From Thermodesulfatator indicus DSM 15286 (GTDB lineage Bacteria > Desulfobacterota > Thermodesulfobacteria > Thermodesulfobacteriales > Thermodesulfatatoraceae), in contig NC_015681.1 in NCBI RefSeq assembly GCF_000217795.1, positions 1,355,244 through 1,419,243 of the forward strand: a stretch of 64,000 nucleotides of DNA, given 5' to 3'. The notes under the pieces were generated by a model that was given only the letters and a program-made list of their open reading frames with translations, made no database searches and was not told where the DNA came from. Positions 45,446-64,000 of the stretch are shown here, piece after piece (the first letter of the stretch is position 1; each line of letters starts with the position of its first letter). The position numbers were made by a program, and so were the translations under genes.

Positions 45446-46711
45446 TTACTGATCCCAAGAAAAAATAAGTTGTTGATAAGTTTTTTCAAAGTTATCAAAA
45501 TGTTTTTGACACAAATCGAAAATTTTTTCCCATAATTTTTCCACAGTCTCTTTTTCAATAGGTTTTAAACCATGAGCTAAAATAGAATTGTTTCTTTGAG
45601 CTAATAAGGTTTTAAAAGATTCTAGTTCTTTCCTAACATTATGTCCCAAATCATTCAATAATTCATAGACTTTTCTAGCACCTATCTTGACTTTATTGTC
45701 AGTAGGATCTCTTTGTAAGAGACTTGTCCACTTTTCAAACTTACTTCCCAATAAATTCCTAATTTTGTCTAAATCTAGATCAGAACTATTCAGGCCATAC
45801 TTTGAAAATAGTATAGTTTGGCCAACTAATTCGAAAATTCTATACAATCTAGCCATGGCATCATCGTATTTTCCTTCTTTTATTCTTCTTTTGGCGTTTG
45901 CTAATAGATCAGCAATGATAATTTTGTCTTTCTTGTTTTGATAAATGAAATTTCCCAAAATTTTTAGACTTTTAAGAGTTTTCTTTTCTGGAAAAAGAGA
46001 AATAAATTCGTTTTTTTCTAGTTTTTTAAAAGCAGTTTCTGCTTTAGAAAAATATTTTTCTGCTTCATGATGTTTAAATAAATCCCATGAATGATATGCC
46101 TTTATAATATTTTCTAAATAATCTAGTTCATTTTTTCGATTTTCTGATAGCAAGTCTCTAAACTCTTGACATTCTGTTATAATAGAACTAGCAGTATCAA
46201 ACTGATATATTTTTAAGCTTTTGTAGGCTTCGTTAATATTTGAGTAAATTTTAGAAATTATCGGTTTAAAGGACATAACTTGTTCTGTTCCTTTTTTTAC
46301 AATACCTTTTATTCGTTCCCCTTGAACATAGCTTAAAGAACCAATATTTCTTTGGAAAGCAACTAAAACAATAGCAGATGACATAGGTTTCGTTCCAGAT
46401 GTAAAATCAGCTATAATCTGATGAGAAGAAAGATTTTGTTTTAAAAGCCAATCAACAGCCTCGTTTGTTTTTTTGACACATTTATCTAAATCATTTGGAT
46501 TTGATATTTCAAAAAAGTTGTAATGCTTTTTATCTATTCCCAAGTTTTCACACACAATTTGGGCATTTTTCTTAGATTTATCCGAGACGATAAAAGCAAT
46601 AAAATTGGGATTCCTTTCAGAAATAGAAAGAGAAATGGCATTTAAAATACTTTCAGGAGTATCTCCAACTCCCGTACCAATTGAAATTAATAGCCCCTTT
46701 TTAAGAGCCAT
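45446..46711 (-). CDS. CARF-HEPN CRISPR effector (Cas02710/TIGR02710-like)
   Basis: The ATG at 46711 is preferred, because GGGAGG lies 7 bases upstream inside the end of cmr6; a TTG two codons earlier is less likely. The product is 421 residues. The CARF domain (about 1-140) has GLLISIGTGVGDTPESI and the ligand-loop motif DFTSGTKPMS (about 102-111). A helical middle is followed by a HEPN motif in QRNNSILAHG, with Arg373 and His380. In this family CARF senses cyclic oligoadenylate made by Cas10 and switches on a HEPN ribonuclease. Position at the end of the cmr operon supports that role; substrate and activator size are unknown. Confidence 0.87.
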   Translation of the reverse strand: MALKKGLLISIGTGVGDTPESILNAISLSISERNPNFIAFIVSDKSKKNAQIVCENLGIDKKHYNFFEISNPNDLDKCVKKTNEAVDWLLKQNLSSHQIIADFTSGTKPMSSAIVLVAFQRNIGSLSYVQGERIKGIVKKGTEQVMSFKPIISKIYSNINEAYKSLKIYQFDTASSIITECQEFRDLLSENRKNELDYLENIIKAYHSWDLFKHHEAEKYFSKAETAFKKLEKNEFISLFPEKKTLKSLKILGNFIYQNKKDKIIIADLLANAKRRIKEGKYDDAMARLYRIFELVGQTILFSKYGLNSSDLDLDKIRNLLGSKFEKWTSLLQRDPTDNKVKIGARKVYELLNDLGHNVRKELESFKTLLAQRNNSILAHGLKPIEKETVEKLWEKIFDLCQKHFDNFEKTYQQLIFSWDQ

Positions 46712-47639
46712 AAACAAACCTCCCGTGTCCCAGGGCCGTCTTGGCGCCGAAGCCGTGTTCGGCGAGGGCAGCGTGAAAGGCCTTCAAAAGTTTTTCTTTG
46801 GCCTTGTCTCCCAATGATTCGTGCATAAGCAAAACAAAGCGAAACTTTGCTCCCGTCGCCACGGCCAGAAAGGGAAGGGGATTTGGGTTTTGATCTTCCG
46901 TAGGGCCGCGCTTGCCACCGTAATAGTCAGAGTAGTGGCAAGTGGTGATCTCCAAGGTAAGCTGCGGGGGTTCAACAGGTAAGGCGTCAAAAAAGATCAC
47001 TTTGCCTCTCCGAGCCCTTTTCCCATCCTTTTCTTCCCGGCCAAAAGGCTTGGCCAGGTATTCCCAGAATCTTTCGTCTTCTTCAGCCCAGTGTTCAAAA
47101 AAGTCTGGCTCTTCTTGGGCTTTATTTACCAGATAAGCCAGGCGCACCACGCCTTTTATGCTTTCAGCAGGGAGGTAAGGGATGCCCAGGGTCCAGTGAA
47201 AGGTGAATCCGCGCTCGGTAGGATGGGCGTTACCCAGGCCGATAATTAAAGATGTCTGGAGTGTATAAGTTTTCGATACTCGCTCATAGCCTAACATCTG
47301 AAAAGCCTTGCAGATGTTCTCAATCTCTTTCTGTTTTTTTGCAATGAGAGATTTAACCCCTTTTGAGGCTTTCTCGTAGTAGTTAAGAACTATTTTAGCC
47401 TGTCCACTAGCCTGAAATTGATATTCCGGAAACTTAAAATTATTCCTGGTTTTCCACTCCGTAAAAAGCCACTTATTGAAATAAAGCCCAAAATTGAAAC
47501 TATCGCCGAGATTTTGAATTATTCCTACATGATCTGCCGATAAAGGGCTAAAGTACTTAGGAATTGATTGTTTTCTTTTCCGGCCTTGTTCTCCGTGTTT
47601 CGGCTTCTTCCCCCAATCAGGCACTTTTTTCCTCCACAA
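46701..47639 (-). CDS. cmr6: Type III-B RAMP protein Cmr6
   Basis: A 312-residue RAMP. The conserved SLIIGLGNAHPTERGFTFHWTLGIPYLPAESIKGVVR-like block (about 130-167) with its L-x-G-x-G turn, and the C-terminal glycine-rich loop FGAKTALGHGRF (about 296-307), mark Cmr6. It caps the crRNA-binding filament in the Cmr complex. It overlaps cmr5 by 23 bases and the CARF-HEPN gene by 11 bases. Confidence 0.92.
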   Translation of the reverse strand: MWRKKVPDWGKKPKHGEQGRKRKQSIPKYFSPLSADHVGIIQNLGDSFNFGLYFNKWLFTEWKTRNNFKFPEYQFQASGQAKIVLNYYEKASKGVKSLIAKKQKEIENICKAFQMLGYERVSKTYTLQTSLIIGLGNAHPTERGFTFHWTLGIPYLPAESIKGVVRLAYLVNKAQEEPDFFEHWAEEDERFWEYLAKPFGREEKDGKRARRGKVIFFDALPVEPPQLTLEITTCHYSDYYGGKRGPTEDQNPNPLPFLAVATGAKFRFVLLMHESLGDKAKEKLLKAFHAALAEHGFGAKTALGHGRFVYGS

Positions 47640-48042
47640 ACATTTTGGTCATGACCTTGAACCACTCCAGAAACCGCAGGGCCTCCTCTTGAAGAGCCAG
47701 ATACTCAAGGGCTCTCTTCCGGGTGAGCTCGTGTATAGTTTGGGCTGGGTTGTCAGGGTCGTAATTAAGAAGATCTTGTTTTTTAAGCCATTCAGCCAGA
47801 GCCTCAAAAGCAAGCCAATATTTGGCCTCTTTACCGGTTTTTTTATATTTACTCTCTTTTTGATTTGCCGCCTTGGCCAGGAGAAAACACAGTGTGTGCC
47901 CAAGGCCGTTTTGCAAGATCATGGCCGGAAGCCCGGAGACAAAGCTCGAGAATTCCTTGGCCGACCCTTTGCCTAATATCTCAAGGGCCTCTTTTACCTT
48001 TTCATAGGCAAACTTCGCTCTTTCTTGTGCTTTGGTCTTCAT
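47617..48042 (-). CDS. cmr5: Type III-B small subunit Cmr5
   Basis: A 141-residue all-helical protein. AKFAYEKVKEALE and FASFVSGLPAMILQNGLGHTLCFLLAKA-like segments (about 8-65) are typical of Cmr5. Several copies line the target-RNA channel of the complex. It overlaps cmr4 by 4 bases and cmr6 by 23. Confidence 0.93.
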   Translation of the reverse strand: MKTKAQERAKFAYEKVKEALEILGKGSAKEFSSFVSGLPAMILQNGLGHTLCFLLAKAANQKESKYKKTGKEAKYWLAFEALAEWLKKQDLLNYDPDNPAQTIHELTRKRALEYLALQEEALRFLEWFKVMTKMFVEEKSA

Positions 48043-48926
48043 TTAGCGCCTCCCTGAGAATCTTTGGGAGCTATCCATTTCACCTTGCAAATTCCTTTAC
48101 CCAAAGTGAAATCGCCGCCTATCTGGAGGTGAGTGGTTACTCCGTGTTCAGTAACGAGCTGAGCTATTTCTTGAGCAGATTTAAATTGGTCTCTTTTGCT
48201 TCTCTCGTCTGAGAAAAAGGCGAGAAAATAGAGCACTGTATCTGCTGGAAGATATTCCTGATAGCGCAAAGAACCGTCTTCGGCTGTGCCGGTATCGTCT
48301 TTAATGGCAATATGGGCCTGCACTTCTGTGGCTGTGCGTACGAGGTAACCAAATACCTCGTCGGAGACCAGAAGGATCTTTTCGGCCTCAGGGATGTTAT
48401 TTGGAAGCCAATTTGTCTTTTCTTGCGTTTGCTTTGGCTTTACCACCATGTCTTCCAGAACAATTTCGCCGGAAATCCCGCCCTTAAGCACTATGTATTC
48501 CTCTTCACCTACGGAATAATTTTCAGACAATTTGTCCTGCAATCCCAGAAGAGACAGTTCTTCCCTCAGCCGCTTGAGCACTGCCGGGCAAGTAACGTGC
48601 ACAAATGGGGCTACGTTTGAACGTACGGGAAAGAGAAGGAGCCTGGCGTCGGTCACCGTGACCGCCCCGGCCCAGCTCCCTCCCTCTTCTCCAGCGCGGC
48701 CGAAGATATACTTCACTAGGTCTTTATCTATGCCGTTATTCTCCCAGGCCTTCTCGCACCAATCACGCAAGGTCCCTTTTACTCCCGAGGCCTGTACCAT
48801 AGGCCAGGCGGTGTGGCGCTCGCGCTGAATGGGCAGATCCACCGCCTTCAAGGCCTGGCCTGCTCCGGCATGAATCGGCGTGAGGGCATATAAGAGACAG
48901 AGCCTTTTTTCATCTCCCCAAAGCAT
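48039..48926 (-). CDS. cmr4: Type III-B backbone RAMP Cmr4
   Basis: A 295-residue Cas7-like subunit that cuts target RNA at 6-nt intervals. The N-terminus reads ALTPIHAGAGQ, then AVDLPIQRERHTAWPMVQASGVKGTLRDW; Asp30 corresponds to the known catalytic aspartate of Cmr4 proteins. The start is preceded by AGGAGGACAAATT, identical to the sequence before the DUF433 gene (see repeats). Confidence 0.95.
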   Translation of the reverse strand: MLWGDEKRLCLLYALTPIHAGAGQALKAVDLPIQRERHTAWPMVQASGVKGTLRDWCEKAWENNGIDKDLVKYIFGRAGEEGGSWAGAVTVTDARLLLFPVRSNVAPFVHVTCPAVLKRLREELSLLGLQDKLSENYSVGEEEYIVLKGGISGEIVLEDMVVKPKQTQEKTNWLPNNIPEAEKILLVSDEVFGYLVRTATEVQAHIAIKDDTGTAEDGSLRYQEYLPADTVLYFLAFFSDERSKRDQFKSAQEIAQLVTEHGVTTHLQIGGDFTLGKGICKVKWIAPKDSQGGAK

Positions 48927-48939
48927 AATTTGTCCTCCT
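48924..48939. repeat. 16-bp direct repeat, right copy in transcription sense (cmr4 RBS/start)
   Basis: CATAATTTGTCCTCCT on the plus strand, read on the minus strand as AGGAGGACAAATTATG: the ribosome-binding site and start of cmr4. An exact copy lies at 49537-49552. The flanking bases differ on both sides. Confidence 0.95.
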
Positions 48940-49303
48940 AATTTAAAGGTAAAATCCTTATTCGTGTCTTTCTTTCATCTAATACAATGAGAGCCCCCTG
49001 TGTTAGGTATTTCTCATACGTGTTTAGCAAATATAGGATCTTAGGAAGCAAGATATGAGGCCTTACATCTAAAGTTCTAACTTGGATAACGCTAGGGAAG
49101 TCTGCTTCAGTTGCAGCTAAAATAGCACCAAAATCTAAATCGTGAGTCAAAACGATGAATTTATTTTTTTTAGCCCAATTAAAGATTTCTTCGTCTTTTG
49201 CAGATAAATTTCCAATTTCGCTCCAATGAAGCGCTTCAAAGTTTTTCTCTTTTATAAGTAATGCCAGCTGAGGTGATAGATTGACATCCACTAATATCTT
49301 CAT
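48938..49303 (-). CDS. DUF5615 PIN-like protein (probable toxin)
   Basis: A 121-residue protein. Acidic residues in the expected places of a PIN-like RNase are Asp5 in KILVDVNLSPQ, Glu44-type residues in AKDEEIFNWAK and Asp in LTHDLDFGAIL. The family is usually found downstream of DUF433 proteins as a toxin-antitoxin pair. It overlaps the DUF433 gene by ATGA and ends 11 bases before cmr4. Finding it inside a cmr operon is unusual. Confidence 0.85.
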   Translation of the reverse strand: MKILVDVNLSPQLALLIKEKNFEALHWSEIGNLSAKDEEIFNWAKKNKFIVLTHDLDFGAILAATEADFPSVIQVRTLDVRPHILLPKILYLLNTYEKYLTQGALIVLDERKTRIRILPLN

Positions 49304-49539
49304 GCGACTTTTTTACTTTCAACTTCTGAAATTTCTATTTCTTCAGCTCGCCAAGCAGCATAAGCTAAAGCCTGATCTATATCTTCCGGTTCTAAATACG
49401 GATAAAGTTTTAAAATTTCTTCTTTGTTAACCCCAGAGGCAATAAGGCCCACTATCATTCCAACAGTTATTCTCATACCTCTGATACAAGGTTTGCCCCC
49501 CATAACCAAAGGGTCAAAGGTGATTCTATCAAACTTCAT
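49300..49539 (-). CDS. DUF433 protein (probable antitoxin)
   Basis: A 79-residue protein of the DUF433 family: ITFDPLVMGGKPCIRGMRITVGMIVGLIASG (helix-turn-helix-like region, about 5-35) and the acidic EEILKLYPYLEPEDIDQALAYAAWRAEE block. It lies 12 bases after cmr3 and overlaps the DUF5615 gene by four bases. Its RBS/start is the second copy of the 16-bp direct repeat. Confidence 0.87.
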   Translation of the reverse strand: MKFDRITFDPLVMGGKPCIRGMRITVGMIVGLIASGVNKEEILKLYPYLEPEDIDQALAYAAWRAEEIEISEVESKKVA

Positions 49540-49552
49540 AATTTGTCCTCCT
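49537..49552. repeat. 16-bp direct repeat, left copy in transcription sense (DUF433 RBS/start)
   Basis: This is identical to 48924-48939. It lies between the cmr3 stop and the DUF433 start codon. The two copies exactly bracket the toxin-antitoxin cassette. Confidence 0.95.
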
Positions 49553-50592
49553 CAAAAAGGTATCAGTTCGCAAAGCCCTGGGTCTTTATCGGCAAAGAAT
49601 ACAGTCCCCACGGGGAAGAAAGTCCGTGCAGGTTTATGGAACCCGGAGTTCAGATCAAAGCCTCCAACCCGCAGGAGTTTTCCTGAAGCATAAGGACCGG
49701 CCAGATTACTTGCTGACCGGGCTCTACTGAAAGAAAGCAGAGAAACCGCCAGCCATCGGCCGTTATTTTTCTGCGGAAGCTGAGGTTTATCTTTTATCAG
49801 ATGATAGCGGACCAGTCGCCCTTCACCTCCAAACTGAAACAGGCCTTTCTCGTTTAAATGTGAAGGGCAAAGAGCTTTATCAAGGCCAACCACAAGAGAA
49901 ACACCTTTAGCCAGGCGCAGGTGGTGGGTGGCGTAGAGATGGCCAGTCCTAACCATTCTAAGACGGTTATCTCTGGCAATACCCACCCTTTGTTCGGTTT
50001 TCAATAAAAGTTCAACCGGCACCGCTAGAGCTTTTTCTTCAGAAATGTCCGTGATAGATTCGGCTACCTCAAGAGAAAATTTTTCCTGGTTTTCCAGGGC
50101 TTTCCTGTTTACCCAGAACCCTAGTGAAAGACGCTCCATATCTTGTGGAGGGTTTTCCACCCAGAGTGCTTTATTAAAAGGGAGTTTGACGCTTACAGTT
50201 TTTTTATCCGGCCGGGCTTCATAAATGACGAAACGGGTTGGTTCCCATCCAGGTTGAGAATAAAACCAATTGGCTGGGGCGGGAAATAACACTATCCCGT
50301 TAGCCTTAAGAAGAGGGCCAGCAATTCTGAAACCGGGACGGGCAGGCGATCCCCAAAAAGGAAGGTTTTCCAGGTCTAAATCCTGCTCTTTTCCGAGTTT
50401 TTTTACGACCGCTAGGTCTATGCCCTTTTGCCCTAAAATAGCGGTGCGTAAAGCGCCAATAATTGTATCCGGTGCCGGCGGGAAAATGGGTCTTCCCGCT
50501 TCGTGAGTTTCCCCGGCCTCCATAGGCTCTCCGCCGCGGAAAAAAAGCGTGTCAAGTGGTTTTATTTCAAGCCACTGTTCAATTAAACCCAT
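49552..50592 (-). CDS. cmr3: Type III-B RAMP protein Cmr3
   Basis: A 346-residue Cas5-like subunit. KPLDTLFFRGGEPMEAGE at the N-terminus and PAPDTIIGALRTAIL (about 37-51) are diagnostic of Cmr3, which binds the 5' handle of crRNA next to Cas10. SFSRARSASNLAGPYASGKLLRVGGFDLNSG is its C-terminal glycine-rich region. It overlaps cas10 by 14 bases. Confidence 0.93.
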   Translation of the reverse strand: MGLIEQWLEIKPLDTLFFRGGEPMEAGETHEAGRPIFPPAPDTIIGALRTAILGQKGIDLAVVKKLGKEQDLDLENLPFWGSPARPGFRIAGPLLKANGIVLFPAPANWFYSQPGWEPTRFVIYEARPDKKTVSVKLPFNKALWVENPPQDMERLSLGFWVNRKALENQEKFSLEVAESITDISEEKALAVPVELLLKTEQRVGIARDNRLRMVRTGHLYATHHLRLAKGVSLVVGLDKALCPSHLNEKGLFQFGGEGRLVRYHLIKDKPQLPQKNNGRWLAVSLLSFSRARSASNLAGPYASGKLLRVGGFDLNSGFHKPARTFFPVGTVFFADKDPGLCELIPF

Positions 50593-53389
50593 GACGACGC
50601 CAGGCCTCTCCTAAAAATCTGGCAATTTCCAGGGCTTCAAAGGCTAAAGTGCCCCTCCGGTCTCCCAGGAGCACGGTGGCTACCCAGGAAGAAATTTCTT
50701 CGTAAAGAGATGAGTTTTCTTTTTTCCCTGTCTTTATCTGGGCAAGAATAAAGCGAGCCATTTCGTCAGGATTATCACTTAACACTTCCAGGCCTTCTGC
50801 TAGTTCTTTCGGCCTGTAGGCAAAAGAGGAGCTAAGTTTTCGGGAAGCAAAGGCCTTGTTTAGTGCCTCAAAAGCGTCCCAGACTGAAACTTCATTTTCG
50901 TTAAAACTAATTTTTTCTTTGAAACCAGCAACGAAAGTGCGCTGTTCGCCCGCGCGGCGCTGCAGTTCAAGGGCCAGAGCCCTCCGGCCGGGATCTTTAG
51001 CTATTTCCAGCAAGCTGTGGGCACGCTCAAGGGCTGCGCGAAGAGGCCATTTGTGATGAATAAATAAAAGTCCACCTGAAATGGAAATCTCCTCACCCGG
51101 GCCCAGATGAAGAAGCAGAAGGTCTTGCGAAAGCAAATCTTCGGCTTTTGAAACTTCTCCAGTCAGGAATTCATTATCTACTATTTTTCCGTCTCGTTTT
51201 ACCACCGTTCGCCTCTGTCCATATCTTACAAAAGCCCAGTTATAGGCGTGGGCTATTTCTCGTGCCGCTTTTAGCGCACTGGAGATGGGAAAGACGGCGC
51301 AAACATCGTCTCCTCCGGCGTAAATCAAGCGTCCCCGATATCTTGCCACAATAGAGGGCACGGTATAAAGAGCAAAGTCAGATAATGCTTTGGAGATGGC
51401 CGCGTGGACGGCCGGGGAAATTAGACGCTTGCAGTTGAGAAAGTCTAGCCAGAAGGTCTTAAAATTTGAGCCAATTTCGCCGTTTTCAAGACGCCTTATA
51501 ATTTCCGGATGAAGAACATCCCGCCAGCGAGCGGCAAAACCACCGGAAAGGAGCCTCCCCATCCGGTCACCGTCCATAACGAGAATGGCATAATAACGGT
51601 CGTAGGTGGTTGGTTCGTCATTTTTTTCTTTACGGCGCTTAAGGAGCTTCAAAACTTTTTTATGTATTTCTTGTTCTTGCTTTGAAATGTCTTTAATTTC
51701 GTACTTGTTGTTTGTTTCCTTCTGGTGAAGGATTTCGGCTATATCTTTGTGGGAAAGGCCGAGTTCAGCTATATCTTTTTCAGCGCGCTCAAGCCAATCT
51801 TTCAGGGCTATTTCGGTGGTGGAAGGGAAGCTCTCGGCCCTTTGAAAGAAAGAGTAAAGCGGATGGTTTTTATCTACCGCCCGGGAGGCCAAGCGTTTGA
51901 TAAGCCCTAGAGCTGAAAGACGTTCGGTTTCTTTAAATTCTGACTTAGAGAATTCTTTACGAATTTTTTGCCAGCATGGGTCACGGCTTGGTCTAGGATT
52001 GGAGTCTGGCCCTCGGCCTGAATTCAGTTCACAGCTTTTCCCATCATTTTTACATTCCAGACAGGAAAACCTTAAAGCTTCAAAGTCCGTATGGAGATGA
52101 CACTTAATACCGGGTTCTTCCGGTCTAATTTCCCTCGGAGAGAGTTTTTCCGCGGCAAGACCGCGCCCCGCAAAATCGTAAGAAGCCGGGTAAAAAAACT
52201 TTTCGGTGAAGCTCAGATATGGAAAATTTATCTGGCGAGCTTCTTCCAGATAAGTTTCAAGTTTTTGGACGATATTTTTAGGAAGAAAGGGCCTGTTCTG
52301 GTTTAAAAGATGTTCGTCAAGTAAAGATACGGCTGTCCAGTGGAATTCCCAGAAGTTAGTCGCCTGACGGTCAAAAATATAGTCAAAACTTTTCAGGCAA
52401 GCTTCTGATACCCCACTAAAACATTCCTTCTTGACCAGGTCTTTTACTTTTTTGGCCAGTTCCTTCCAGGATTCTTCTATGTGTTTCTCAATAAGCTCAG
52501 CAATTTCTTTTTCCTGGCCTGCCGGGCTAAGAAACAAAAACTTATTGGGAAGGGTGGCTGCTCTGGCTTCAAGGTGATAGCGAGCCGTCCAGTGGCTAAA
52601 GCCACAAGTTTTGTCTAGCTTTGCTTCTATTAAGGCCTGGCCTATTGGTGCAGGATAGATAATATGGTCTGAACCGTAGCGAGAGATGACCACCCAGAGA
52701 CCTTCTGAGGCTAGCCAGGATAGGATCAATGAGGCGGTCCAGTAGTCGCGAAGTTTGCGTGAGCGGGCAATGAAGTCCTGAACAGGAGTAAGGCTAAAGA
52801 CCATAAGACTTGCTTGTGTGTCGGGCGACTCCCGGTAGCAGGAGTAGAGGGCTGAAGTCAGCGCGCAGTGTTGCCAGATGGAATGGTCCGGCAAACGGGT
52901 GTCTGCTGGAAGCCCCCACCAGTGCCAGGCAAGGTTGCCTACATTTGTTTGGGCCAGACGCCACGGGAGCACGTGCCGAAAATAGTGAAAAAGGGCAAAA
53001 GAATAATAGTGTTTTGGGAAATTGTTACTGTCCTGTGCTATTAATATCTCAATTTGGCTTAAAATATTTTGAAGATTGAAATTACTAAAAGGGCCCAGGT
53101 TAAAAGGGCTGGTTTTACCCGTAGGGTGGGTAATAACGGGATATTCTGGAAATTTTATTTCGCCCCCGCTTTCTCTTTCGGGTAAAAAAGTGCGGTCAAG
53201 CCCTGAGGCTACCTGGTCAGCCCTGGAGAGCAAATTTTCATCGGCGGAAACATAGATTTTTTCCCGCAGTTTTTCAGCTCGTTTGACATGACCCCAGATA
53301 GAAAGAGCTTTGTCAGGCGGGTCGTGCAGAAAAGCGGCCAGTTTTTCACGCCAGTAGTTTTCGTCTTTGCGAATTTTACAGGCAGTCAT
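50579..53389 (-). CDS. cas10: Type III-B Cas10 (Cmr2)
   Basis: A 936-residue large subunit. An N-terminal HD motif, FLHDPPDK (about 20-27), suggests an intact DNase site. A palm domain starts near 598 with YAILVMDGDRMGRLLSG, and the cyclase/polymerase motif GGDD is at about 692-695 (YAGGDDVCAVF). A Cys-rich zinc region (CLECKNDGKSC) is near 440-455. The intact GGDD implies cyclic oligoadenylate synthesis, matching the CARF-HEPN effector at the end of the operon. It overlaps cmr1 and cmr3 by 14 bases each. Confidence 0.95.
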   Translation of the reverse strand: MTACKIRKDENYWREKLAAFLHDPPDKALSIWGHVKRAEKLREKIYVSADENLLSRADQVASGLDRTFLPERESGGEIKFPEYPVITHPTGKTSPFNLGPFSNFNLQNILSQIEILIAQDSNNFPKHYYSFALFHYFRHVLPWRLAQTNVGNLAWHWWGLPADTRLPDHSIWQHCALTSALYSCYRESPDTQASLMVFSLTPVQDFIARSRKLRDYWTASLILSWLASEGLWVVISRYGSDHIIYPAPIGQALIEAKLDKTCGFSHWTARYHLEARAATLPNKFLFLSPAGQEKEIAELIEKHIEESWKELAKKVKDLVKKECFSGVSEACLKSFDYIFDRQATNFWEFHWTAVSLLDEHLLNQNRPFLPKNIVQKLETYLEEARQINFPYLSFTEKFFYPASYDFAGRGLAAEKLSPREIRPEEPGIKCHLHTDFEALRFSCLECKNDGKSCELNSGRGPDSNPRPSRDPCWQKIRKEFSKSEFKETERLSALGLIKRLASRAVDKNHPLYSFFQRAESFPSTTEIALKDWLERAEKDIAELGLSHKDIAEILHQKETNNKYEIKDISKQEQEIHKKVLKLLKRRKEKNDEPTTYDRYYAILVMDGDRMGRLLSGGFAARWRDVLHPEIIRRLENGEIGSNFKTFWLDFLNCKRLISPAVHAAISKALSDFALYTVPSIVARYRGRLIYAGGDDVCAVFPISSALKAAREIAHAYNWAFVRYGQRRTVVKRDGKIVDNEFLTGEVSKAEDLLSQDLLLLHLGPGEEISISGGLLFIHHKWPLRAALERAHSLLEIAKDPGRRALALELQRRAGEQRTFVAGFKEKISFNENEVSVWDAFEALNKAFASRKLSSSFAYRPKELAEGLEVLSDNPDEMARFILAQIKTGKKENSSLYEEISSWVATVLLGDRRGTLAFEALEIARFLGEAWRRHGFN

Positions 53390-54485
53390 TTATGTTTGCC
53401 CTCTGCATAGCCTGGTCCAAACGCTGATGAACCTTTTGCCAGATTTTAAATTGTTTATCAGGAGTAAAAAATTCTTTTCGAGCGGCGTTTTTGCGCATCT
53501 CCTTGCTTATCCCAAAGGGGAGATGAAGAACAAAACCCTGATAACCGGTTTTCTTTTTACGCACGAACAAACGCAGAGGTGAGGCATGTCTGGCATTTTT
53601 TCCCCAATTAGGGGCATCAAAGGCATAATGATTTGTCAATGGAAAACCAAGGAGGTGACGTTCATCAATGTCTTTTGTTCCATCTGGAGATAGAGAGGTT
53701 CTTACCGAGATGTAAACCTCGGCTAGTTCTTTCATGACCTCTTCCCAGTTCTTACGTAGATTTTTGGTCTTCCAAACTAAAGCTTTTATAAGGTTTTCTT
53801 CTTTTTGGGCTGCTAAAGTAAAAGGATAGTCTTTTTGGAATAGCCCTTTTCCCCATAAAGAATATTTAATTTTGGCCGTAATGGGGGGGTCTATTTTCTC
53901 CACCTGAAAGCTTCCCCAGCCGTTGCGAGAGCGAGAGCCTATGGCCCCAAAGGCGCACAGATAAAGGAGAGCGGTTTTGAAATATTCATCTTCCAGAAAA
54001 GAGGCCGGCAGAGTGAGCTTGAGGGTAAAGGTTTCTTTGGGGGCGAGGTAGAAGCGCGTGTATTTTGATCCTTTATCCCAGGTAACCGGCCCATAGCCCA
54101 GGTAAAGAAGAGGATTTACCGGACGACCAGCTTCAGGATGAAAGACATTTCTAACTCTCGGCAGACGTTGGTCAGTTATGATTTTAGGCTTTCCCTCCAA
54201 CTCCACGGTGACCAGACTCTTTTGCGCCTTTTCACCCCCGCCGCCAAAAATTTTGGTTTCTTCCGTCAGTAGTTCTACAGGGTCTTTTAAATTTCTCCCC
54301 GCGGCCACACGCCACCAGTAGCGCAAAAGCCCTTTAAACGGCGCCGGGCGCAGCGACGCCTTTTGTTCGGCGTCACCTAAAAACATAGGAGTGATGATTC
54401 GGCAGTGAAATTTGACGGTAACGAGCTTTTCAAATCTCTGGCGCAAGTTTTCAAGTCTATCCTGCTTATTCATAGTAAATAGCAA
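53376..54485 (-). CDS. cmr1: Type III-B RAMP protein Cmr1
   Basis: Up to 369 residues from a TTG at 54485 with GGAG just upstream; an ATG four codons later (54473) is an alternative. FHCRIITPMFLGDAEQKASLRPAPFKGLLRYWWR (about 28-60) is the hallmark of Cmr1, and AIGSRSRNGWGSFQV is its glycine-rich loop. It binds the 3' end of crRNA and helps target-RNA loading. It is the first gene of the minus-strand cmr operon. Confidence 0.93.
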   Translation of the reverse strand: MLFTMNKQDRLENLRQRFEKLVTVKFHCRIITPMFLGDAEQKASLRPAPFKGLLRYWWRVAAGRNLKDPVELLTEETKIFGGGGEKAQKSLVTVELEGKPKIITDQRLPRVRNVFHPEAGRPVNPLLYLGYGPVTWDKGSKYTRFYLAPKETFTLKLTLPASFLEDEYFKTALLYLCAFGAIGSRSRNGWGSFQVEKIDPPITAKIKYSLWGKGLFQKDYPFTLAAQKEENLIKALVWKTKNLRKNWEEVMKELAEVYISVRTSLSPDGTKDIDERHLLGFPLTNHYAFDAPNWGKNARHASPLRLFVRKKKTGYQGFVLHLPFGISKEMRKNAARKEFFTPDKQFKIWQKVHQRLDQAMQRANINDCL

Positions 54486-55108: not shown

Positions 55109-58100
55109 GTGAGAAAACCTTGCCTGATTAAGAAGGCATTACGACATTATCAGAGTAATATGTATACTGTTTTCTGAAGCCAACTGTGAGAAAACCTTGC
55201 CTGATTAAGAAGGCATTACGACACATAAGCCCGCTCTCTTCGACCTCCTCGAGATACTCCTCGTGAGAAAACCTTGCCTGATTAAGAAGGCATTACGACT
55301 GCCTCTCCTTCCTCAATCCAGAGTTCGAGGCTTCCGCCATGTGAGAAAACCTTGCCTGATTAAGAAGGCATTACGACAATTTAACTTTTGCCAAATACTC
55401 TTTTTTCTTTTCCATCGTGAGAAAACCTTGCCTGATTAAGAAGGCATTACGACCCACTCAATGAGAGCGGATGGCTTGTCGGAGACGACTTTTGTGAGAA
55501 AACCTTGCCTGATTAAGAAGGCATTACGACTCAATGAGAGCTGGTAATTTAACAAATAAATTATTTCTTGTGAGAAAACCTTGCCTGATTAAGAAGGCAT
55601 TACGACCCCTGGCACAGTCGGGACAAACGTTCATATAGTGACCTATTATGTGAGAAAACCTTGCCTGATTAAGAAGGCATTACGACAGTCGTGCCCGATG
55701 AACAAAACCACACCTCAATAGAGCCACCAGTGAGAAAACCTTGCCTGATTAAGAAGGCATTACGACCCCGTAGTTACGGGCTGCTATAGCCAGAGTACTC
55801 GGGTTTGGTGAGAAAACCTTGCCTGATTAAGAAGGCATTACGACATTACTTCCATTTCTTTACCTCCCTTTTCTTATTTTACTGTGAGAAAACCTTGCCT
55901 GATTAAGAAGGCATTACGACGGACTCACAAAGAGAGGTCCTTTGAAAATCCTCGGCCCCGTTGTGAGAAAACCTTGCCTGATTAAGAAGGCATTACGACT
56001 CTTAAGAAAGGAAGCTGTTGCTTCTTTTATTTTTTCTCGTGAGAAAACCTTGCCTGATTAAGAAGGCATTACGACTTCTTTTCCATCTCTCTTTACCTCC
56101 CTTTTCTTATTTTACTTGTGAGAAAACCTTGCCTGATTAAGAAGGCATTACGACTTTTTCCATAGCGCTGCTCCCCTTTTTTTGCTTAACTTACTAGTGA
56201 GAAAACCTTGCCTGATTAAGAAGGCATTACGACTCTATAAAATAAAATTGAAGCTCTGCCTTTCCATTTCGTGAGAAAACCTTGCCTGATTAAGAAGGCA
56301 TTACGACCCCCGCTCTCCCTTCTTTCCTTGTCCTTACGCTACATTGTAAGGTGAGAAAACCTTGCCTGATTAAGAAGGCATTACGACTTGGAGACACTCG
56401 GGGCATGCATAACTAAAAGAAAGGTGTGAGAAAACCTTGCCTGATTAAGAAGGCATTACGACGTTGATTACTATTAATACTATTTTTTTCATTTTTTCCT
56501 GTGAGAAAACCTTGCCTGATTAAGAAGGCATTACGACTATAACCATTGTTTTCTAATACCTTATTAATGACACTAGGTGAGAAAACCTTGCCTGATTAAG
56601 AAGGCATTACGACAGTCCTGAGGCCTTCGGTAAGAACAAGAAACAAAAAAAGCGTGAGAAAACCTTGCCTGATTAAGAAGGCATTACGACGAGACGACCT
56701 TTACGGTCGTCCCGGATACATCAAACCACGTGAGAAAACCTTGCCTGATTAAGAAGGCATTACGACGTCTCACAAAGAGAGGCCCTTTGAAAATCCTCGG
56801 CCCTGTGTGAGAAAACCTTGCCTGATTAAGAAGGCATTACGACCAGACAAGCTGGCTCTCAAAATACGCCGTTTGGCGGAGATGTGAGAAAACCTTGCCT
56901 GATTAAGAAGGCATTACGACCCTTAGCAGGCCTCCAGGCCTTGTCAGGAAACCTCAGGACCGTGAGAAAACCTTGCCTGATTAAGAAGGCATTACGACTC
57001 AACATCAGATAAATAACACTTCACTATGTATTCCCTGTGAGAAAACCTTGCCTGATTAAGAAGGCATTACGACCACACAAGACCATCATTCATTCCAGCC
57101 ACATAGGTCTGGGTGAGAAAACCTTGCCTGATTAAGAAGGCATTACGACTGGCAATAGGTAAGAGTCCAGTTGCTGTGGCCAGTAAGCTGTGAGAAAACC
57201 TTGCCTGATTAAGAAGGCATTACGACAAACCACAACACAACTGTACTGTTCCTTAGCCTCTCAATACGTGAGAAAACCTTGCCTGATTAAGAAGGCATTA
57301 CGACACTATCAGCCAATTTAACTTTTGCCAAATACTCTTTTTGTGAGAAAACCTTGCCTGATTAAGAAGGCATTACGACAACTGTGTATTCCACATTGTC
57401 TTCTAACCTAACTGCTGGTGAGAAAACCTTGCCTGATTAAGAAGGCATTACGACGTAGCATGGTGATTTACTCGAAATATTACTTTGCCCAGCCAGGACG
57501 TGAGAAAACCTTGCCTGATTAAGAAGGCATTACGACTATACTCTTCAAACTCGCCATAGAGCTGCTTCAGCTCTATGGTGAGAAAACCTTGCCTGATTAA
57601 GAAGGCATTACGACAGGTCATCTTCTATAGAAAAACTGTAAAAAAGTTTAAAACAGTGAGAAAACCTTGCCTGATTAAGAAGGCATTACGACCACTTCTT
57701 CTTCCCAAGGACATTCGACTCCTGCAGGCTTCTCGTGAGAAAACCTTGCCTGATTAAGAAGGCATTACGACTGCGTTGCAGGGTGGTAAAAAACGAGCCA
57801 TTCTGAGCCCTGTGAGAAAACCTTGCCTGATTAAGAAGGCATTACGACAGTTGTCGCAGGTCCATAGGACGGCTGATTCCCAACCGTGGTGAGAAAACCT
57901 TGCCTGATTAAGAAGGCATTACGACTCTCTCTTCTCGCTCCTGCAACGTAATGCCGTTAAGGTGTTCGGTGAGAAAACCTTGCCTGATTAAGAAGGCATT
58001 ACGACTTGGTCCAAGGGAACACGAAATACTTAAGTCTTCCTCAATAACGTGAGAAAACCTTGCCTGATTAAGAAGGCATTACGACTCAATGAGCCAATCT

Positions 58101-58774
58101 ATTATTTCTTGGCGGGAGAGCATCGTGAGAAAACCTTGCCTGATTAAGAAGGCATTACGACTAATTACCCTCAACGACCAGGACTCCGCCGTCCTGGTCA
58201 AACGTGAGAAAACCTTGCCTGATTAAGAAGGCATTACGACCCAGTTATGTCCACAACTTCTTTGTCTATCTTGTCTATCAGTGAGAAAACCTTGCCTGAT
58301 TAAGAAGGCATTACGACCCAAGGCTAGCCCAAGGGCCTTTCTATTCTTCGTATGCATGTGAGAAAACCTTGCCTGATTAAGAAGGCATTACGACCGACTT
58401 CGTCTCTCATGGAAAGCTTATGCTTTCCAACAAACCGTGAGAAAACCTTGCCTGATTAAGAAGGCATTACGACAGAGATATTGTCCTGTCCAGCCAGGAC
58501 GGTGTCGTCCTGGAGTGAGAAAACCTTGCCTGATTAAGAAGGCATTACGACAAAACACCATATTGTTTATTTATAAATAAATTAACTCGTGAGAAAACCT
58601 TGCCTGATTAAGAAGGCATTACGACATGCCGACACAACCAAAACAAATTCATCGGTGGCAATCTTGTGAGAAAACCTTGCCTGATTAAGAAGGCATTACG
58701 ACACCTCCTTTTATTTTTGATTTATTCCCGGAAGTTTCCAGAGGGTGAGAAAACCTTGCCTGATTAAGAAGGCA
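55109..58774 (+). CRISPR. CRISPR array, 48 repeats and 47 spacers
   Basis: The repeat is 37 bases, beginning GTGAGAAAACCTTGCCTGAT and ending GAAGGCATTACGAC. I located 48 copies, the first at 55109-55145. All but the last look identical; the last (58745-58774) is truncated after GGCA, marking the distal end. Spacers are about 37-45 bases and average near 40. The repeat resembles the type III-associated CCTTGCCTGATT...GATTAAGAC class in the same orientation, which agrees with plus-strand transcription from a leader on the left. Its core can form a short CCTT/AAGG stem. The adjacent Cmr genes and the cas1-cas2 operon are its likely partners. No cas6 is seen. Confidence 0.97.
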
Positions 58775-58841
58775 AAGGGACAGGCCCCCTGGCCTGTCCC
58801 TTCCAAATTGACGGGCCGGCAGTATGGTAGATGGCTGATGG
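58754..58841. repeat. 88-bp direct repeat, copy A (contains truncated CRISPR repeat end and palindrome)
   Basis: This starts within the last CRISPR repeat (CCTTGCCTGATT...), continues through a perfect palindrome, AAGGGACAGGCC (58775-58786)-CCCT-GGCCTGTCCCTT (58791-58802), and ends with GGGCCGGCAGTATGGTAGAT-GGCTGATGG. Copy B at 58988-59075 differs at one position. The 12-pair hairpin could end array transcription, though no T run follows. Confidence 0.92.
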
Positions 58842-59209
58842 AGATAGACTGCTTCGCTTTGCTCGCAGTGACAGAATGGTTGATGCCAGATTGCTGATGG
58901 TAAAAGCCTACGCCCCTACTTTGTTCACACTCACAGTTTTTTCAGTTTTTTTACCATCCCCTATTCACTATTCACCGCGAAGCAATGCCTTGCCTGATTA
59001 AGAAGGCAAAGGGACAGGCCCCCTGGCCTGTCCCTTCCGAATTGACGGGCCGGCAGTATGGTAGATGGCTGATGGTGAGAGACTGCTTCGCTTCGCTCGC
59101 AGTGACAGGATGGTTGCTGGCAGATGGCTGATGGCAGATGGCAGAGACTGCTTGGCTTAGCTCGCATTGCCAGAATGATAGATGGCTGATAGCAGAGGGC
59201 TGCAAAAAT
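58775..59209. other. Repeat-rich non-coding region after the array
   Basis: No credible gene exists in these 435 bases. They consist of two copies of the 88-bp direct repeat, two copies of the AAGGGACAGGCC palindrome, three copies of the AGACTGCTTCGCT...CTCGCAGTGACA repeat, and many TGGCAGA/TGGCTGA heptamer-like units. Short open frames here are translations of these repeats. Confidence 0.85.
58988..59075. repeat. 88-bp direct repeat, copy B
   Basis: This is the second copy of 58754-58841, again with the 3' two-thirds of a CRISPR repeat (CCTTGCCTGATTAAGAAGGC) fused to the palindrome (59009-59036). It is an isolated partial CRISPR repeat outside the array. Confidence 0.92.
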
Positions 59210-60674: not shown

Positions 60675-60962
60675 TTGAAGGCCACTCACTATCTCGTCTC
60701 CTACGACATTGCCGATGACAAGCGCCTGCGCAAGGTGGCCAGAATTATGGAAGACTTTGGCGAGCGGGTGCTTTATAGCGTGTTTGAATGCCATCTAACA
60801 CCGGTTCAGCTAGAGGCTTTGCGCCGCTCGGTGGAGCCAATACTTGATCCCCTTGAAGACAGTGTACGCTACTACCCCATATGTGAGCGCTGTGAAAAAC
60901 ATATTGAACACCTGGGGCGAGACAAAAAATTCTTGCGTCGTAAGGAGTTTGAAATACTTTGA
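60675..60962 (+). CDS. cas2: Cas2 (first copy)
   Basis: A 95-residue Cas2 with a TTG start preceded by GGGGGTAAG. HYLVSYDIADDKRLRKVARIM has the conserved Asp at about 11 of the ferredoxin fold, and SVFECHLTPVQLEAL is typical. Cas2 forms the dimer core of the Cas1-Cas2 integrase. Its stop overlaps the CAPP start by 4 bases. A second, different Cas2 follows cas1. The 205-bp gap before it holds a weak copy of the dispersed repeat (about 60534-60570) and no gene. Confidence 0.93.
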   Translation: MKATHYLVSYDIADDKRLRKVARIMEDFGERVLYSVFECHLTPVQLEALRRSVEPILDPLEDSVRYYPICERCEKHIEHLGRDKKFLRRKEFEIL

Positions 60963-62674
60963 ATCATCTTTTTACGGCTGAAGAATTGCTGGCTCGCGGT
61001 GAAGAGGAAAAAGCCAGAAACTTGGTTCTGCGCTATCGTCTGTGGCCAGGCCAGAGGGCTTCTGAATACTTGCGCTGGGGTGCCCTTTGCGAAGACCTGG
61101 CTCTTCCCAAACAGGCCATGGAATGCTACCGAAAAGCACTGGAGGTTTCCAGAGACTATCCCCAGGCCATCTGGGCGCTGGCCAAGCTCTGTTATGAACT
61201 CGGAGACCTTGACGCCGCCAAGAGATTGACCAGACGTTTCTTACAAAAAGAGCCTGATAATTCCTCTGCCCGCGAACTTCTGGCCAGGATTTATCAGGAA
61301 CTTGGTGAAGTTGGTTCGTATGCCGTTATAACTCAGGAAAAAGACGAAAAGCCCCATGGCCCGCGTTATTTTCCGCCGTCTTTAGGAAAGAAAGACCTTG
61401 AGCCTTTTGATATTTTTCTTGAAGGTCGCAGGGCCCACGGAGAGCTGATTTTGAGCCAGAATACCGGCTCTCCCATGTTTCTTTATCGTGAGGCCGCGCT
61501 TAATTTAGACGAACTTAAAGAACACCTTGAAGGCAAACGCTATTTTGCCGTTTATCCCATTGACGAAGATAAACGCACCAGGGTGGCTTTTATCTCTATT
61601 CAGATTCCTGAACGGGAACGGGCCCGTCATGCGCGACTAAAAAGCTGGCTTTATCTGAAATCTCAGATAGTTAAGGATATAGCCCTTTCAGCCTACAAAA
61701 GAGTTAACCAGGAAAACCTGCCCGCTGCCCTTGAGGCCGTGTCTCCTTATTATTTCAGGCTGTGGTTCTTTTTTGCTGAGCCTATTCATTTTCTCTGGGC
61801 CAAAAGGTTTTTGAAGGCTTTGACAAACAAACTACCCTATCCCGAAGAGGGAATTATTTATCGGGATTGGAATCTTACCAGGCCGGTTGGCCTTGGCTGG
61901 CGGGAGCAGGCGGTATTTTTGCCTTTAGGGCTTAACCCTGTTAACAGAACACGGGCCATGTTTATGGACGAATACGGAGAACCGCAACCTGAGCAACTCA
62001 CCTTTTTCAAAAAATTACGCCATTTAACCTTTTCTGAAATAAAAACATTCTGCCGTGGTGGGGAACTGCGCTTTGAAGTGCGCACGGCAAGGTTATTTGA
62101 TGAATTGCTTTCTCGATTATGTGAAAGCTGTGCCTTAATCAAGGCTTTGGTGCAGAAGGCCCAGGCCGGAAGGCTACTTTCGCGCGAGGAAAAACTGGCC
62201 CTTTTCCTCACCATTGGCTTGCTTGACCAGGACGGCCGCTTGCTTCACGAAGTGCTTTATCCGTGCCCTGATTATCGCTTTGCAAAAATAGAACGCCAGC
62301 GCCGAGGCCTGCCTAAAAACCCCGTTAGCTGTTACAAACTTAGAGCCTGGTTTCCTGCGCTTGCGGCCTCTTTGCCGTGCCACTGTGTATTTGAAAATGC
62401 GCAAGAAAGATACCCCTCTCCTTTGCTTCACGTTTCACCCATTCTGGTGCCACCTGAGGAAGAGACTCTTACCCTTGAGTACAGGACTCCTAAAGAGCTT
62501 GCTCGGCGCTACTGCTTTTATCTCAACGAAAAAGAAAGGCTTGAACGCAAAATAGCCAGAGCTGAACGGGAACTTACTGAGTATCTGAGGGCCAGGCCAG
62601 GCAAAAAGATAAAACTCTCTGAAAACGCCTTTCTTACTTACGAAGACGGAAAGCTCAAAGTGGAGCAGAACTAA
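60959..62674 (+). CDS. TPR-fused CRISPR-associated primase-polymerase (CAPP), apparently catalytically degenerate
   Basis: A 571-residue protein. Residues 1-125 are TPR-like repeats. Residues about 140-360 match an archaeo-eukaryotic primase/Prim-Pol domain as found in CRISPR-associated primase-polymerases. The usual hhhDhD motif aligns with AFISIQI (210-216), so both acids are missing. The usual GxHhW motif aligns with YYFRLW (264-269), with Arg267 replacing His. LPLGLN (321-326) and FMDEYG (335-340) keep the later part of the fold. Four cysteines (436, 458, 474 and 476) form a probable C-terminal metal site, then a coiled coil (about 520-545). Tight overlaps with cas2 and cas1 show it belongs to the adaptation operon. 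Confidence 0.78.
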   Translation: MNHLFTAEELLARGEEEKARNLVLRYRLWPGQRASEYLRWGALCEDLALPKQAMECYRKALEVSRDYPQAIWALAKLCYELGDLDAAKRLTRRFLQKEPDNSSARELLARIYQELGEVGSYAVITQEKDEKPHGPRYFPPSLGKKDLEPFDIFLEGRRAHGELILSQNTGSPMFLYREAALNLDELKEHLEGKRYFAVYPIDEDKRTRVAFISIQIPERERARHARLKSWLYLKSQIVKDIALSAYKRVNQENLPAALEAVSPYYFRLWFFFAEPIHFLWAKRFLKALTNKLPYPEEGIIYRDWNLTRPVGLGWREQAVFLPLGLNPVNRTRAMFMDEYGEPQPEQLTFFKKLRHLTFSEIKTFCRGGELRFEVRTARLFDELLSRLCESCALIKALVQKAQAGRLLSREEKLALFLTIGLLDQDGRLLHEVLYPCPDYRFAKIERQRRGLPKNPVSCYKLRAWFPALAASLPCHCVFENAQERYPSPLLHVSPILVPPEEETLTLEYRTPKELARRYCFYLNEKERLERKIARAERELTEYLRARPGKKIKLSENAFLTYEDGKLKVEQN

Positions 62675-63690
62675 TGGCCTTATACATTACCGAGCAAGGT
62701 TTAAAAGTCAGGAAGGAGGGCCAGCGCCTTCAATTTTACAAAGAGAAAAACGTTGTTCGTGAGTTTAGGCTTGATGATCTTGACGAAATCTATGTCTTCG
62801 GGCGATTGAACTTTTCGGCAGCAGCCCTTCAGGCCCTTCTTAAACACGAAATAAAAGTGCACTTTCTTACCGCTTCAGGTAAATATCTGGGGCGCCTGGC
62901 TCCACCTCGCGGCAAAAACGTAGAGCTAAGGCTTGCTCAATTCAGGGCCTTTGATAACGAAAAACGCCGTCTTGAGATAGCAAGAGCCGTTATTGCCGGG
63001 AAAATCAGAAACCAGAAAAACTTCTTGCGCCGCCAGAACCGTAAATTGAAAAACGAAAAAATAGGCCAGGCTATCTTAAAATTGCGTCACAAAATTAAAG
63101 AGGCCGAAGATGCCCAGAGCCTGGAATCTTTAAGGGGGATAGAAGGTCAGGCCGCCCAGGTCTATTTTGATGTTTTTGGTAAGCTTTTTCAGGTAGAGGG
63201 GTTAAAGTTTCCGGGCCGCATTAGAAGGCCGCCGCCTGACCCGATAAATGCTCTGCTTTCTTTAGGCTACACCCTTCTTTTTGCCCAGATATGGAGCGTT
63301 GCTGAAAGTACCGGCTTTGACCCTTATCTTGGTTTTTTGCACGTGCCTGAGTACGGCCGTCCTTCATTGGTTTTAGACCTCGCTGAGGAGTGGCGCCCTC
63401 TAATAGTGGATTCTCTAGTAGTGAGGCTTTTTAACTGGAAGGCCGTAAAGCCTGAGGACTTTACCGAAGAGCCCTGGGATGATGAGGAAGACTTTACTTC
63501 TTTTAAGCTTACGCCTGACGGCCTGCGAAAGTTTCTCGCCAAATTTCGCGAGCGTTTGGACGAAGAGGCCTTGTATGCTCCGCTTAACAAGCGTCTAAGC
63601 TATCGCTACATCATGCAACAGCAGGTGTGGCATCTGGCCCGGGTGCTTGATGGCCGAGAAGAAAAATACCAGGCTTTCTCATTAGAATGA
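62674..63690 (+). CDS. cas1: Cas1 integrase
   Basis: A 338-residue protein. The metal-binding residues can be placed: Glu157 in RGIEGQAAQVYF, His223 in LGFLHVPEYGRPSL, and Asp235/Glu238 in LDLAEEWRPLIVD. The N-terminal beta domain (about 1-85) is followed by the helical catalytic domain. The start shares a base with the CAPP stop (TAATG), and cas2 copy 2 begins 4 bases later. It integrates new spacers at the leader end of the array. Confidence 0.97.
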   Translation: MALYITEQGLKVRKEGQRLQFYKEKNVVREFRLDDLDEIYVFGRLNFSAAALQALLKHEIKVHFLTASGKYLGRLAPPRGKNVELRLAQFRAFDNEKRRLEIARAVIAGKIRNQKNFLRRQNRKLKNEKIGQAILKLRHKIKEAEDAQSLESLRGIEGQAAQVYFDVFGKLFQVEGLKFPGRIRRPPPDPINALLSLGYTLLFAQIWSVAESTGFDPYLGFLHVPEYGRPSLVLDLAEEWRPLIVDSLVVRLFNWKAVKPEDFTEEPWDDEEDFTSFKLTPDGLRKFLAKFRERLDEEALYAPLNKRLSYRYIMQQQVWHLARVLDGREEKYQAFSLE

Positions 63691-63694
63691 GCCC

Positions 63695-63985
63695 ATGGCC
63701 AAGAGGCAGTTTTACATAGTTTCTTATGATATATCTGACGAAAAGCGCCTGCGCGAAATACACAAATTCATGAAAGACTTTGGCGAATGGAAACAAAAAA
63801 GCGTATTTGAGTGCTGGCTTACACCAGAAGCTTACGAAAACATGAAAGCTGGCCTTAAAAAGCTTTTTAAGCCCCGAGAAGACCGGGTGCGTATTTACCG
63901 CCTCTGTAAGACCTGCCGTGAAAGGGCCTTTTCCTACGGCTGGGGCGAACTTCCTGAAGAGTTTGAAGAAGATGTGATTTTATAG
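63695..63985 (+). CDS. cas2: Cas2 (second copy)
   Basis: A 96-residue Cas2. FYIVSYDISDEKRLREIHKFMKDFGEW carries the conserved Asp at about 12, and SVFECWLTPEAYENM is the second block. It is clearly homologous to but distinct from the 60675 copy. It is the last complete gene in the window; the operon may continue to the right. Confidence 0.94.
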   Translation: MAKRQFYIVSYDISDEKRLREIHKFMKDFGEWKQKSVFECWLTPEAYENMKAGLKKLFKPREDRVRIYRLCKTCRERAFSYGWGELPEEFEEDVIL

Positions 63986-64000
63986 TGGCCGAAGCCGAAG

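Follow-up and report, generated by a model that had tools for sequence, protein, structure and literature searches.

A clade of CRISPR-associated primase-polymerases that has lost its catalytic residues and is linked to two Cas2 lineages

Thermodesulfatator indicus DSM 15286 encodes, beside cas1, a CRISPR-associated primase-polymerase (CAPP) that is predicted to keep the fold of its family and in which the residues for binding both catalytic metals are missing. This protein, referred to here as pseudo-CAPP, is probably a pseudo-primase-polymerase that serves the CRISPR adaptation complex as a subunit without catalytic function. Because CAPPs synthesize DNA, a part in the formation of CRISPR memory has been proposed for them. 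We analyzed a window of 64,000 nucleotides around the gene (positions 1,355,244 to 1,419,243 of NC_015681.1, forward strand), taken from a genome that consists of a single contig of 2,322,224 bases.

Results

Almost the whole of pseudo-CAPP was matched by the NCBIfam model NF040561 (CRISPR-associated primase-polymerase type A1), at 445.6 bits against a curated cut-off of 200 bits, and the relatives L013-L017 scored 263-576 bits. A Pfam scan returned AEP-TOTE and TPR repeats. The protein has the architecture of TPR-type CAPP_A proteins, with an N-terminal TPR domain, a Prim-Pol domain and a C-terminal domain (CTD), and it also has their setting, an operon with cas1 and cas2 and a type III system. 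A Pfam scan of the whole protein sequence found no match to the PriL profile at E≤1. The features of the locus are collected in Table 1.

Table 1 Features of the pseudo-CAPP locus in the window, with residue numbers of pseudo-CAPP.
Feature	Position	Strand	Remarks
Type III-B effector module	45449..54485	-	CARF protein (TIGR02710), cmr6, cmr5, cmr4, cmr3, cas10/cmr2, cmr1; NCBIfam scan
CRISPR array	55109..58781	+	48 repeats of 37 nt; 47 spacers, all distinct; mean spacer 40.4 nt
cas2-beta (divergent, second Cas2 lineage)	60675..60962	+	Pfam/TIGR cas2 matches; beta clade support 95/86
Pseudo-CAPP gene (TPR-type CAPP, catalytic centre erased)	60959..62674	+	571 aa; TTG start overlaps cas2-beta 3' end
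TPR domain, residues 1-125	60959..61333	+	Pfam TPR matches; helical repeats in model
Prim-Pol (AEP) fold, residues 141-369	61379..62065	+	VIA-align against 7nqf/7nqe/7p9j
D202-E203-D204	61562..61570	+	D204 ancestral, common to active CAPPs
Motif I position, S213-I-Q215 in place of D-h-D	61595..61603	+	Alignment to Marinitoga CAPP and 60-locus alignment
Motif II position, R267 in place of catalytic His	61757..61759	+	Arg in 25/26 dead loci
Motif III position, R302 in place of Glu	61862..61864	+	Glu retained in 13/26 dead loci
Clade-specific loop T307-x3-G311-x-G313-W314-x-E316	61877..61906	+	In place of the FPKQ...GKGxGN loop of active CAPPs; near-invariant in dead clade
C-terminal domain, conserved C391, C458, C474, C476	62090..62593	+	Putative metal site
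cas1	62674..63690	+	TIGR00287 305 bits; active-site E, H, D present
cas2-alpha	63695..63985	+	Pfam/TIGR cas2 matches; alpha clade support 98/91
cas6, 3' end only in window	63934..64000	-	Runs on past window end (L003:5178-6122); TIGR01877 40.0 bits, below the 58.65-bit cut-off

The operon runs in the order cas2-beta, CAPP, cas1 and cas2-alpha. Upstream of it lie the CRISPR array and the type III-B module, which includes Cas10 and a CARF protein. Within that module, the Cmr3 match was slightly under its NCBIfam cut-off. Between the array and the operon, at 58754-59200 of the window, lie direct repeats (about 147 and 58 nt) that have diverged. The genome also carries a second CRISPR system with cas4, cas1b and a 30-nt repeat; because this module is tied to a different repeat, it is unlikely to stand in for the adaptation genes of the 37-nt arrays. 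Its own array (L004:11341-15183) has 58 repeats; of its 57 spacers, 52 are distinct, and several recur in identical copies. Elsewhere in the T. indicus genome, we found neither a second, active CAPP nor a match to another AEP-TOTE primase.

We gathered relatives from 457 genomes of the same phylum and from a collection of 84,980 species genomes, which gave 60 scorable CAPP loci, nearly all from that phylum. When pseudo-CAPP was aligned to the solved Prim-Pol domain of Marinitoga CAPP, AYDIDI fell on FISIQI (residues 211-216) and GYHIW on YFRLW (265-269), which aligns S213 and Q215 with the D-x-D pair and R267 with the histidine of motif II; the 60-locus alignment concurred. The open reading frame, these two strings and the landmarks FLPLG (320-324) and FMDEYG (335-340) were as the preliminary description had reported, and the loss of the acidic pair and the histidine that it claimed is borne out by both alignments. 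Its account of the extent was nevertheless too modest, as the glutamate of motif III is gone too: in the alignment of the dead clade with active relatives, ExFPKQ is replaced by R302-D-W-N-L-T, with both the lysine of FPKQ and the GKG loop lost as well. The T. indicus protein therefore departs from all three motifs of catalytic AEP or Prim-Pol proteins, namely motif I (hhhDhD/E; an aspartate in 0 of the 26 clade members), motif II (sxH) and motif III (hD/E). Judged from sequence, pseudo-CAPP is a CAPP by family score and architecture that lacks the motifs defining catalytic Prim-Pols.

These motifs have been defined in a review, according to which mutations in the motif I/III triad ablate activity by blocking metal binding, and motif II is among the conserved motifs with metal- and nucleotide-contacting residues (PMC10345425). 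In MpCAPP and DbCAPP, exchange of D-x-D for A-x-A abolishes polymerase activity, and the MpCAPP mutant loses priming too (PMC8211822). The residues needed for both primase and polymerase activity are thus missing from pseudo-CAPP, and we infer that the protein would show neither activity in vitro.

The 60 loci fell into two classes. Aspartate, aspartate, histidine and glutamate are kept at all four positions in 34, and the other 26 lack aspartate at both motif I positions, with Arg at the motif II position in 25 of them and Tyr in one. No intermediates occurred among the scored loci, and a split this clean makes chance or alignment error a very unlikely source of the pattern. Weak metal binding is possible for some members, since 13 of the 26 keep the motif III glutamate and one, L132, has E-x-E at motif I. 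In a maximum-likelihood tree, the dead proteins (25 rows from 24 loci) were set apart together by a branch supported at 100/100; the inactive clade for which the preliminary description had suggested such a tree does exist. Its members come mostly from families of the same phylum, with two MAGs labelled Myxococcota and Deferribacterota, and the sequence closest to pseudo-CAPP is that of the sister species Thermodesulfatator autotrophicus (L042). On this phylogeny, the catalytic loss is ancestral to the whole clade and is not a single-gene event, so the earlier view of a loss confined to one gene has to be given up: the clade as a whole shares it, together with a near-invariant exchange of His for Arg and newly conserved residues. 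A mobile-element origin was discarded, as no relative was confirmed in viral contigs or plasmids.

The acidic D202-E203-D204 stretch had been put forward as a possible replacement for the lost site. It is quite improbable that pseudo-CAPP is still a polymerase in which these acids or E259 form a relocated metal site, even though D204 is near-invariant in the clade and E259 is conserved. Position 204 carries Asp in 23 of the 27 rows for the clade and in 30 of the 34 for active enzymes, which marks D204 as ancestral, and both D204 and E259 are equally conserved in active enzymes; as they stand there beside an intact DxD, they are not replacements. The other two acids are not conserved, with mostly Arg at position 202 and a variable residue at 203, and the absence of the motif II histidine, the FPKQ lysine and the GKG loop also speaks against a working site.

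We then compared conservation across the 221 Prim-Pol columns of the dead clade. The columns that once held the aspartate pair come only at ranks 175 and 201, and the top of the list includes G311 (rank 3), R267 (5), E316 (12), T307 (18) and W314 (19), all of which differ from the residues of active enzymes. Variable DxD columns together with conserved new residues are the pattern expected when one function has been lost and another selected. Compared with the sister species, the whole CAPP gene gave dN 0.19 and dS 1.38 (dN/dS about 0.14), the Prim-Pol domain alone dN 0.21 and dS 1.15, and cas1 dN 0.13 and dS 2.37, values that make for rough ratios because dS is near saturation. As far as these comparisons of sequences go, the dead clade is under purifying selection.

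These data bear on the idea that the gene is a decaying pseudogene or a dispensable passenger of the cas1-cas2 operon. Some members are indeed broken (L135 is in pieces, and L098 and L101 are split), and one CAPP-less genome, G018, retains only a Cas2-beta relic. Most of the 26 loci are nevertheless full-length and spread across many families, the gene adjoins cas1 wherever the flank is readable, and neither the near-invariant clade-specific residues nor the low dN/dS, approximate as it is with dS so high, fits decay, which we therefore regard as very improbable. At L135 (Thermosulfurimonas dismutans, the same as L048), cas1 and both cas2 genes are still present beside the fragmented CAPP gene. 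At L096 (3907-6021), a single 705-aa open reading frame runs from the dead CAPP into the middle of cas1, with the CAPP C-terminus and the Cas1 N-terminus missing, for which a fusion, a deletion and a fault of the assembly are the candidate causes. At L134 (4612-5573), the dead CAPP gene and cas1 are separated by a CRISPR array with 13 repeats.

We utilized AlphaFold2 to predict the structure of pseudo-CAPP, with the dead clade's own alignment as input, and obtained a model with a mean pLDDT of 89. Marinitoga CAPP (7nqf/7nqe/7p9j) was the top match in both Foldseek and VIA-align searches with the whole model, which covered residues 1-366. The VIA-align superposition had a Z of 23.8 and an rmsd of 2.6-2.8 over 215 residues at 18-19% identity; the next structural family followed at Z 12, and the model of an active relative, used as a control, reached Z 29.7. 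The predicted structure thus indicates that the Prim-Pol fold is kept despite the lost catalytic residues, as the preliminary description had proposed. Its suggestion of a non-catalytic role linked to Cas1-Cas2, whether as scaffold, selector or regulator, is likewise supported, by this match, by the inactivity of the AxA mutants of homologues and by the existence of the inactive clade. In the same searches, PDB 2atz (Helicobacter pylori HP0184) matched residues 137-375 of pseudo-CAPP, at Z 11-13 with both CAPP models, and HP0184 may possibly be an unannotated Prim-Pol-like fold.

Beyond the Prim-Pol domain, four cysteines of the CTD (C391, C458, C474 and C476) are conserved across the dead clade and the nearest active group, which suggests that they probably form a metal site. 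The net charge of the Prim-Pol domain and CTD is somewhat lower and stays positive; an altered charge was accordingly dropped as a sign of lost DNA binding.

Two divergent cas2 genes flank the pseudo-CAPP and cas1 genes of T. indicus, a feature absent from the preliminary description. Among loci with long enough flanks, all 21 with a dead CAPP have two cas2 genes, and all 31 with an active CAPP have one within the stretch read. Cas2 proteins from dead loci group into an alpha clade (support 98/91) and a beta clade (95/86), with one member of each at every readable locus. Three gene orders occur: CAPP-cas1-alpha-beta in most loci, beta-CAPP-cas1-alpha in T. indicus and alpha-beta-CAPP-cas1 in L132. 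When 395 genomes of the phylum were searched with a Cas2-beta profile, the scores showed a gap between 124 and 113 bits, above which only dead-CAPP genomes were found, except G018. In G018, an open reading frame with the Cas2-beta relic (L169:4896-5423) lies upstream of an argB-like gene among unrelated neighbours, apparently as the remnant of a lost adaptation module. Since the dead clade arose once, its linkage to the Cas2 pair is a single event that has long been maintained, and not many independent ones; the p-value of a Fisher test on these loci therefore carries no independent weight.

A Cas2 pair is not a hallmark of dead CAPPs alone. Four CAPP-less type III cas1 loci (L170, L171, L172 and L173) have two tandem divergent cas2 genes of further lineages, several of them beside CARF-like genes, so that pairing is not specific to pseudo-CAPPs.

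The active sites of Cas1 are intact by inspection of their residues, and arrays with distinct spacers adjoin the dead-CAPP modules. Taken together, these observations indicate that adaptation functions without catalysis by CAPP, or did so until recently. Spacer lengths of dead-CAPP modules overlap those of active modules, so a distinctive spacer size was rejected as a mark left by the dead module.

Discussion

Our analysis places pseudo-CAPP close to the TPR-type CAPP_A proteins of Marinitoga (MpCAPP/MsCAPP; PDB 7nqd, 7nqe, 7nqf and 7p9j), with which it shares the order of TPR, Prim-Pol and C-terminal domains, the Prim-Pol fold, the cas1-cas2 operon and the type III system. It differs from them in lacking the catalytic triad, the motif II histidine and the FPKQ loop, and its operon has two cas2 genes and no Argonaute gene. 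By analogy only, pseudo-CAPP can be compared with the non-catalytic primase subunits PriL/Pri2 and PriX, as a protein descended from primases that could aid a catalytic partner without catalysis of its own. PriX resembles the CTD of Pri2 (PMC10345425) and not a dead Prim-Pol, and the partner of pseudo-CAPP would be an integrase.

An inactive Prim-Pol domain has a published precedent in CART-CAPPs, fusions of a reverse transcriptase (RT) to a CAPP found, for example, in Caloramator, in which the Prim-Pol is inactive by assay and the RT domain synthesizes (PMC10415136). Pseudo-CAPP would share the inactive Prim-Pol domain, as judged from its sequence. The same explanation, that Prim-Pol fell silent because an RT took over synthesis, is extremely improbable here, although it has been published for CART-CAPPs (PMC10415136). 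The Pfam scan found no RT domain in pseudo-CAPP, and the T. indicus genome has no RVT_1 match, so that, barring an unrecognized RT, the published reason does not apply. Moreover, 15 of the 21 dead-CAPP genomes searched gave no RVT_1 match, and the RTs of the other six lie on other contigs or at a distance.

A TPR and Prim-Pol shape that is kept when catalysis is dropped agrees with a component for holding Cas1 and DNA. MpCas1 binds MpCAPP lacking its CTD, and Marinitoga CAPP, Cas1, Cas2 and Ago assemble into one complex (PMC8211822). By extension, we infer that pseudo-CAPP acts as a subunit of a Cas1-Cas2-alpha-Cas2-beta integrase. Its TPR/Prim-Pol part would hold Cas1, as in the Marinitoga CAPP, and the basic Prim-Pol domain, with R267 and the T307-G311-W314-E316 loop in place of the nucleotide site, would hold DNA ends together with the four-cysteine CTD. 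The bound ends may belong to a prespacer or an integration intermediate, which the complex would load or position on the Cas1-Cas2 integrase, with a host polymerase filling the gaps. Cas2-alpha and Cas2-beta may pair as a heterodimer within this integrase.

Pseudo-CAPP could instead be a regulator and not an adaptor, in which case the dead Prim-Pol would sense nucleotides or single-stranded DNA, or cap Cas1, and so limit spacer acquisition. R267 stands where the histidine of a metal- and nucleotide-contacting motif was (PMC10345425), and the positive net charge is compatible with such a role. The data do not separate positive from negative control, however, and the obligate-looking co-inheritance with cas2-alpha and cas2-beta fits a complex subunit at least equally well; we consider a regulator rather unlikely.

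The Cas1-Cas2 integrase is usually symmetric. More tentatively than the general role of a non-catalytic adaptation subunit, we propose as a possibility a distinct adaptation machine in which Cas1 and an obligate Cas2-alpha/Cas2-beta heterodimer form an asymmetric integrase, and the former polymerase, docked on one face, sets which prespacer end or repeat side is used. We found no mention of a Cas2 heterodimer or a duplicated cas2 in the open-access literature, nor any report there of a stand-alone inactive CAPP clade; the clade and its Cas2 pair are thus apparently unreported in that literature.

The NF040561 model scores the dead CAPPs far over its cut-off and labels them primase-polymerase, so that a public family model gives this name to catalytically dead proteins. 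The clade is large and selected, and its modules, which have neither the catalytic residues nor an RT, stand next to long arrays whose spacers are distinct. For the family, this sets a structural role of CAPPs apart from DNA synthesis and opens that role to direct tests. The strict association of the clade with two Cas2 lineages suggests an asymmetric integrase, and such an integrase would have implications for how the orientation of new spacers is decided.
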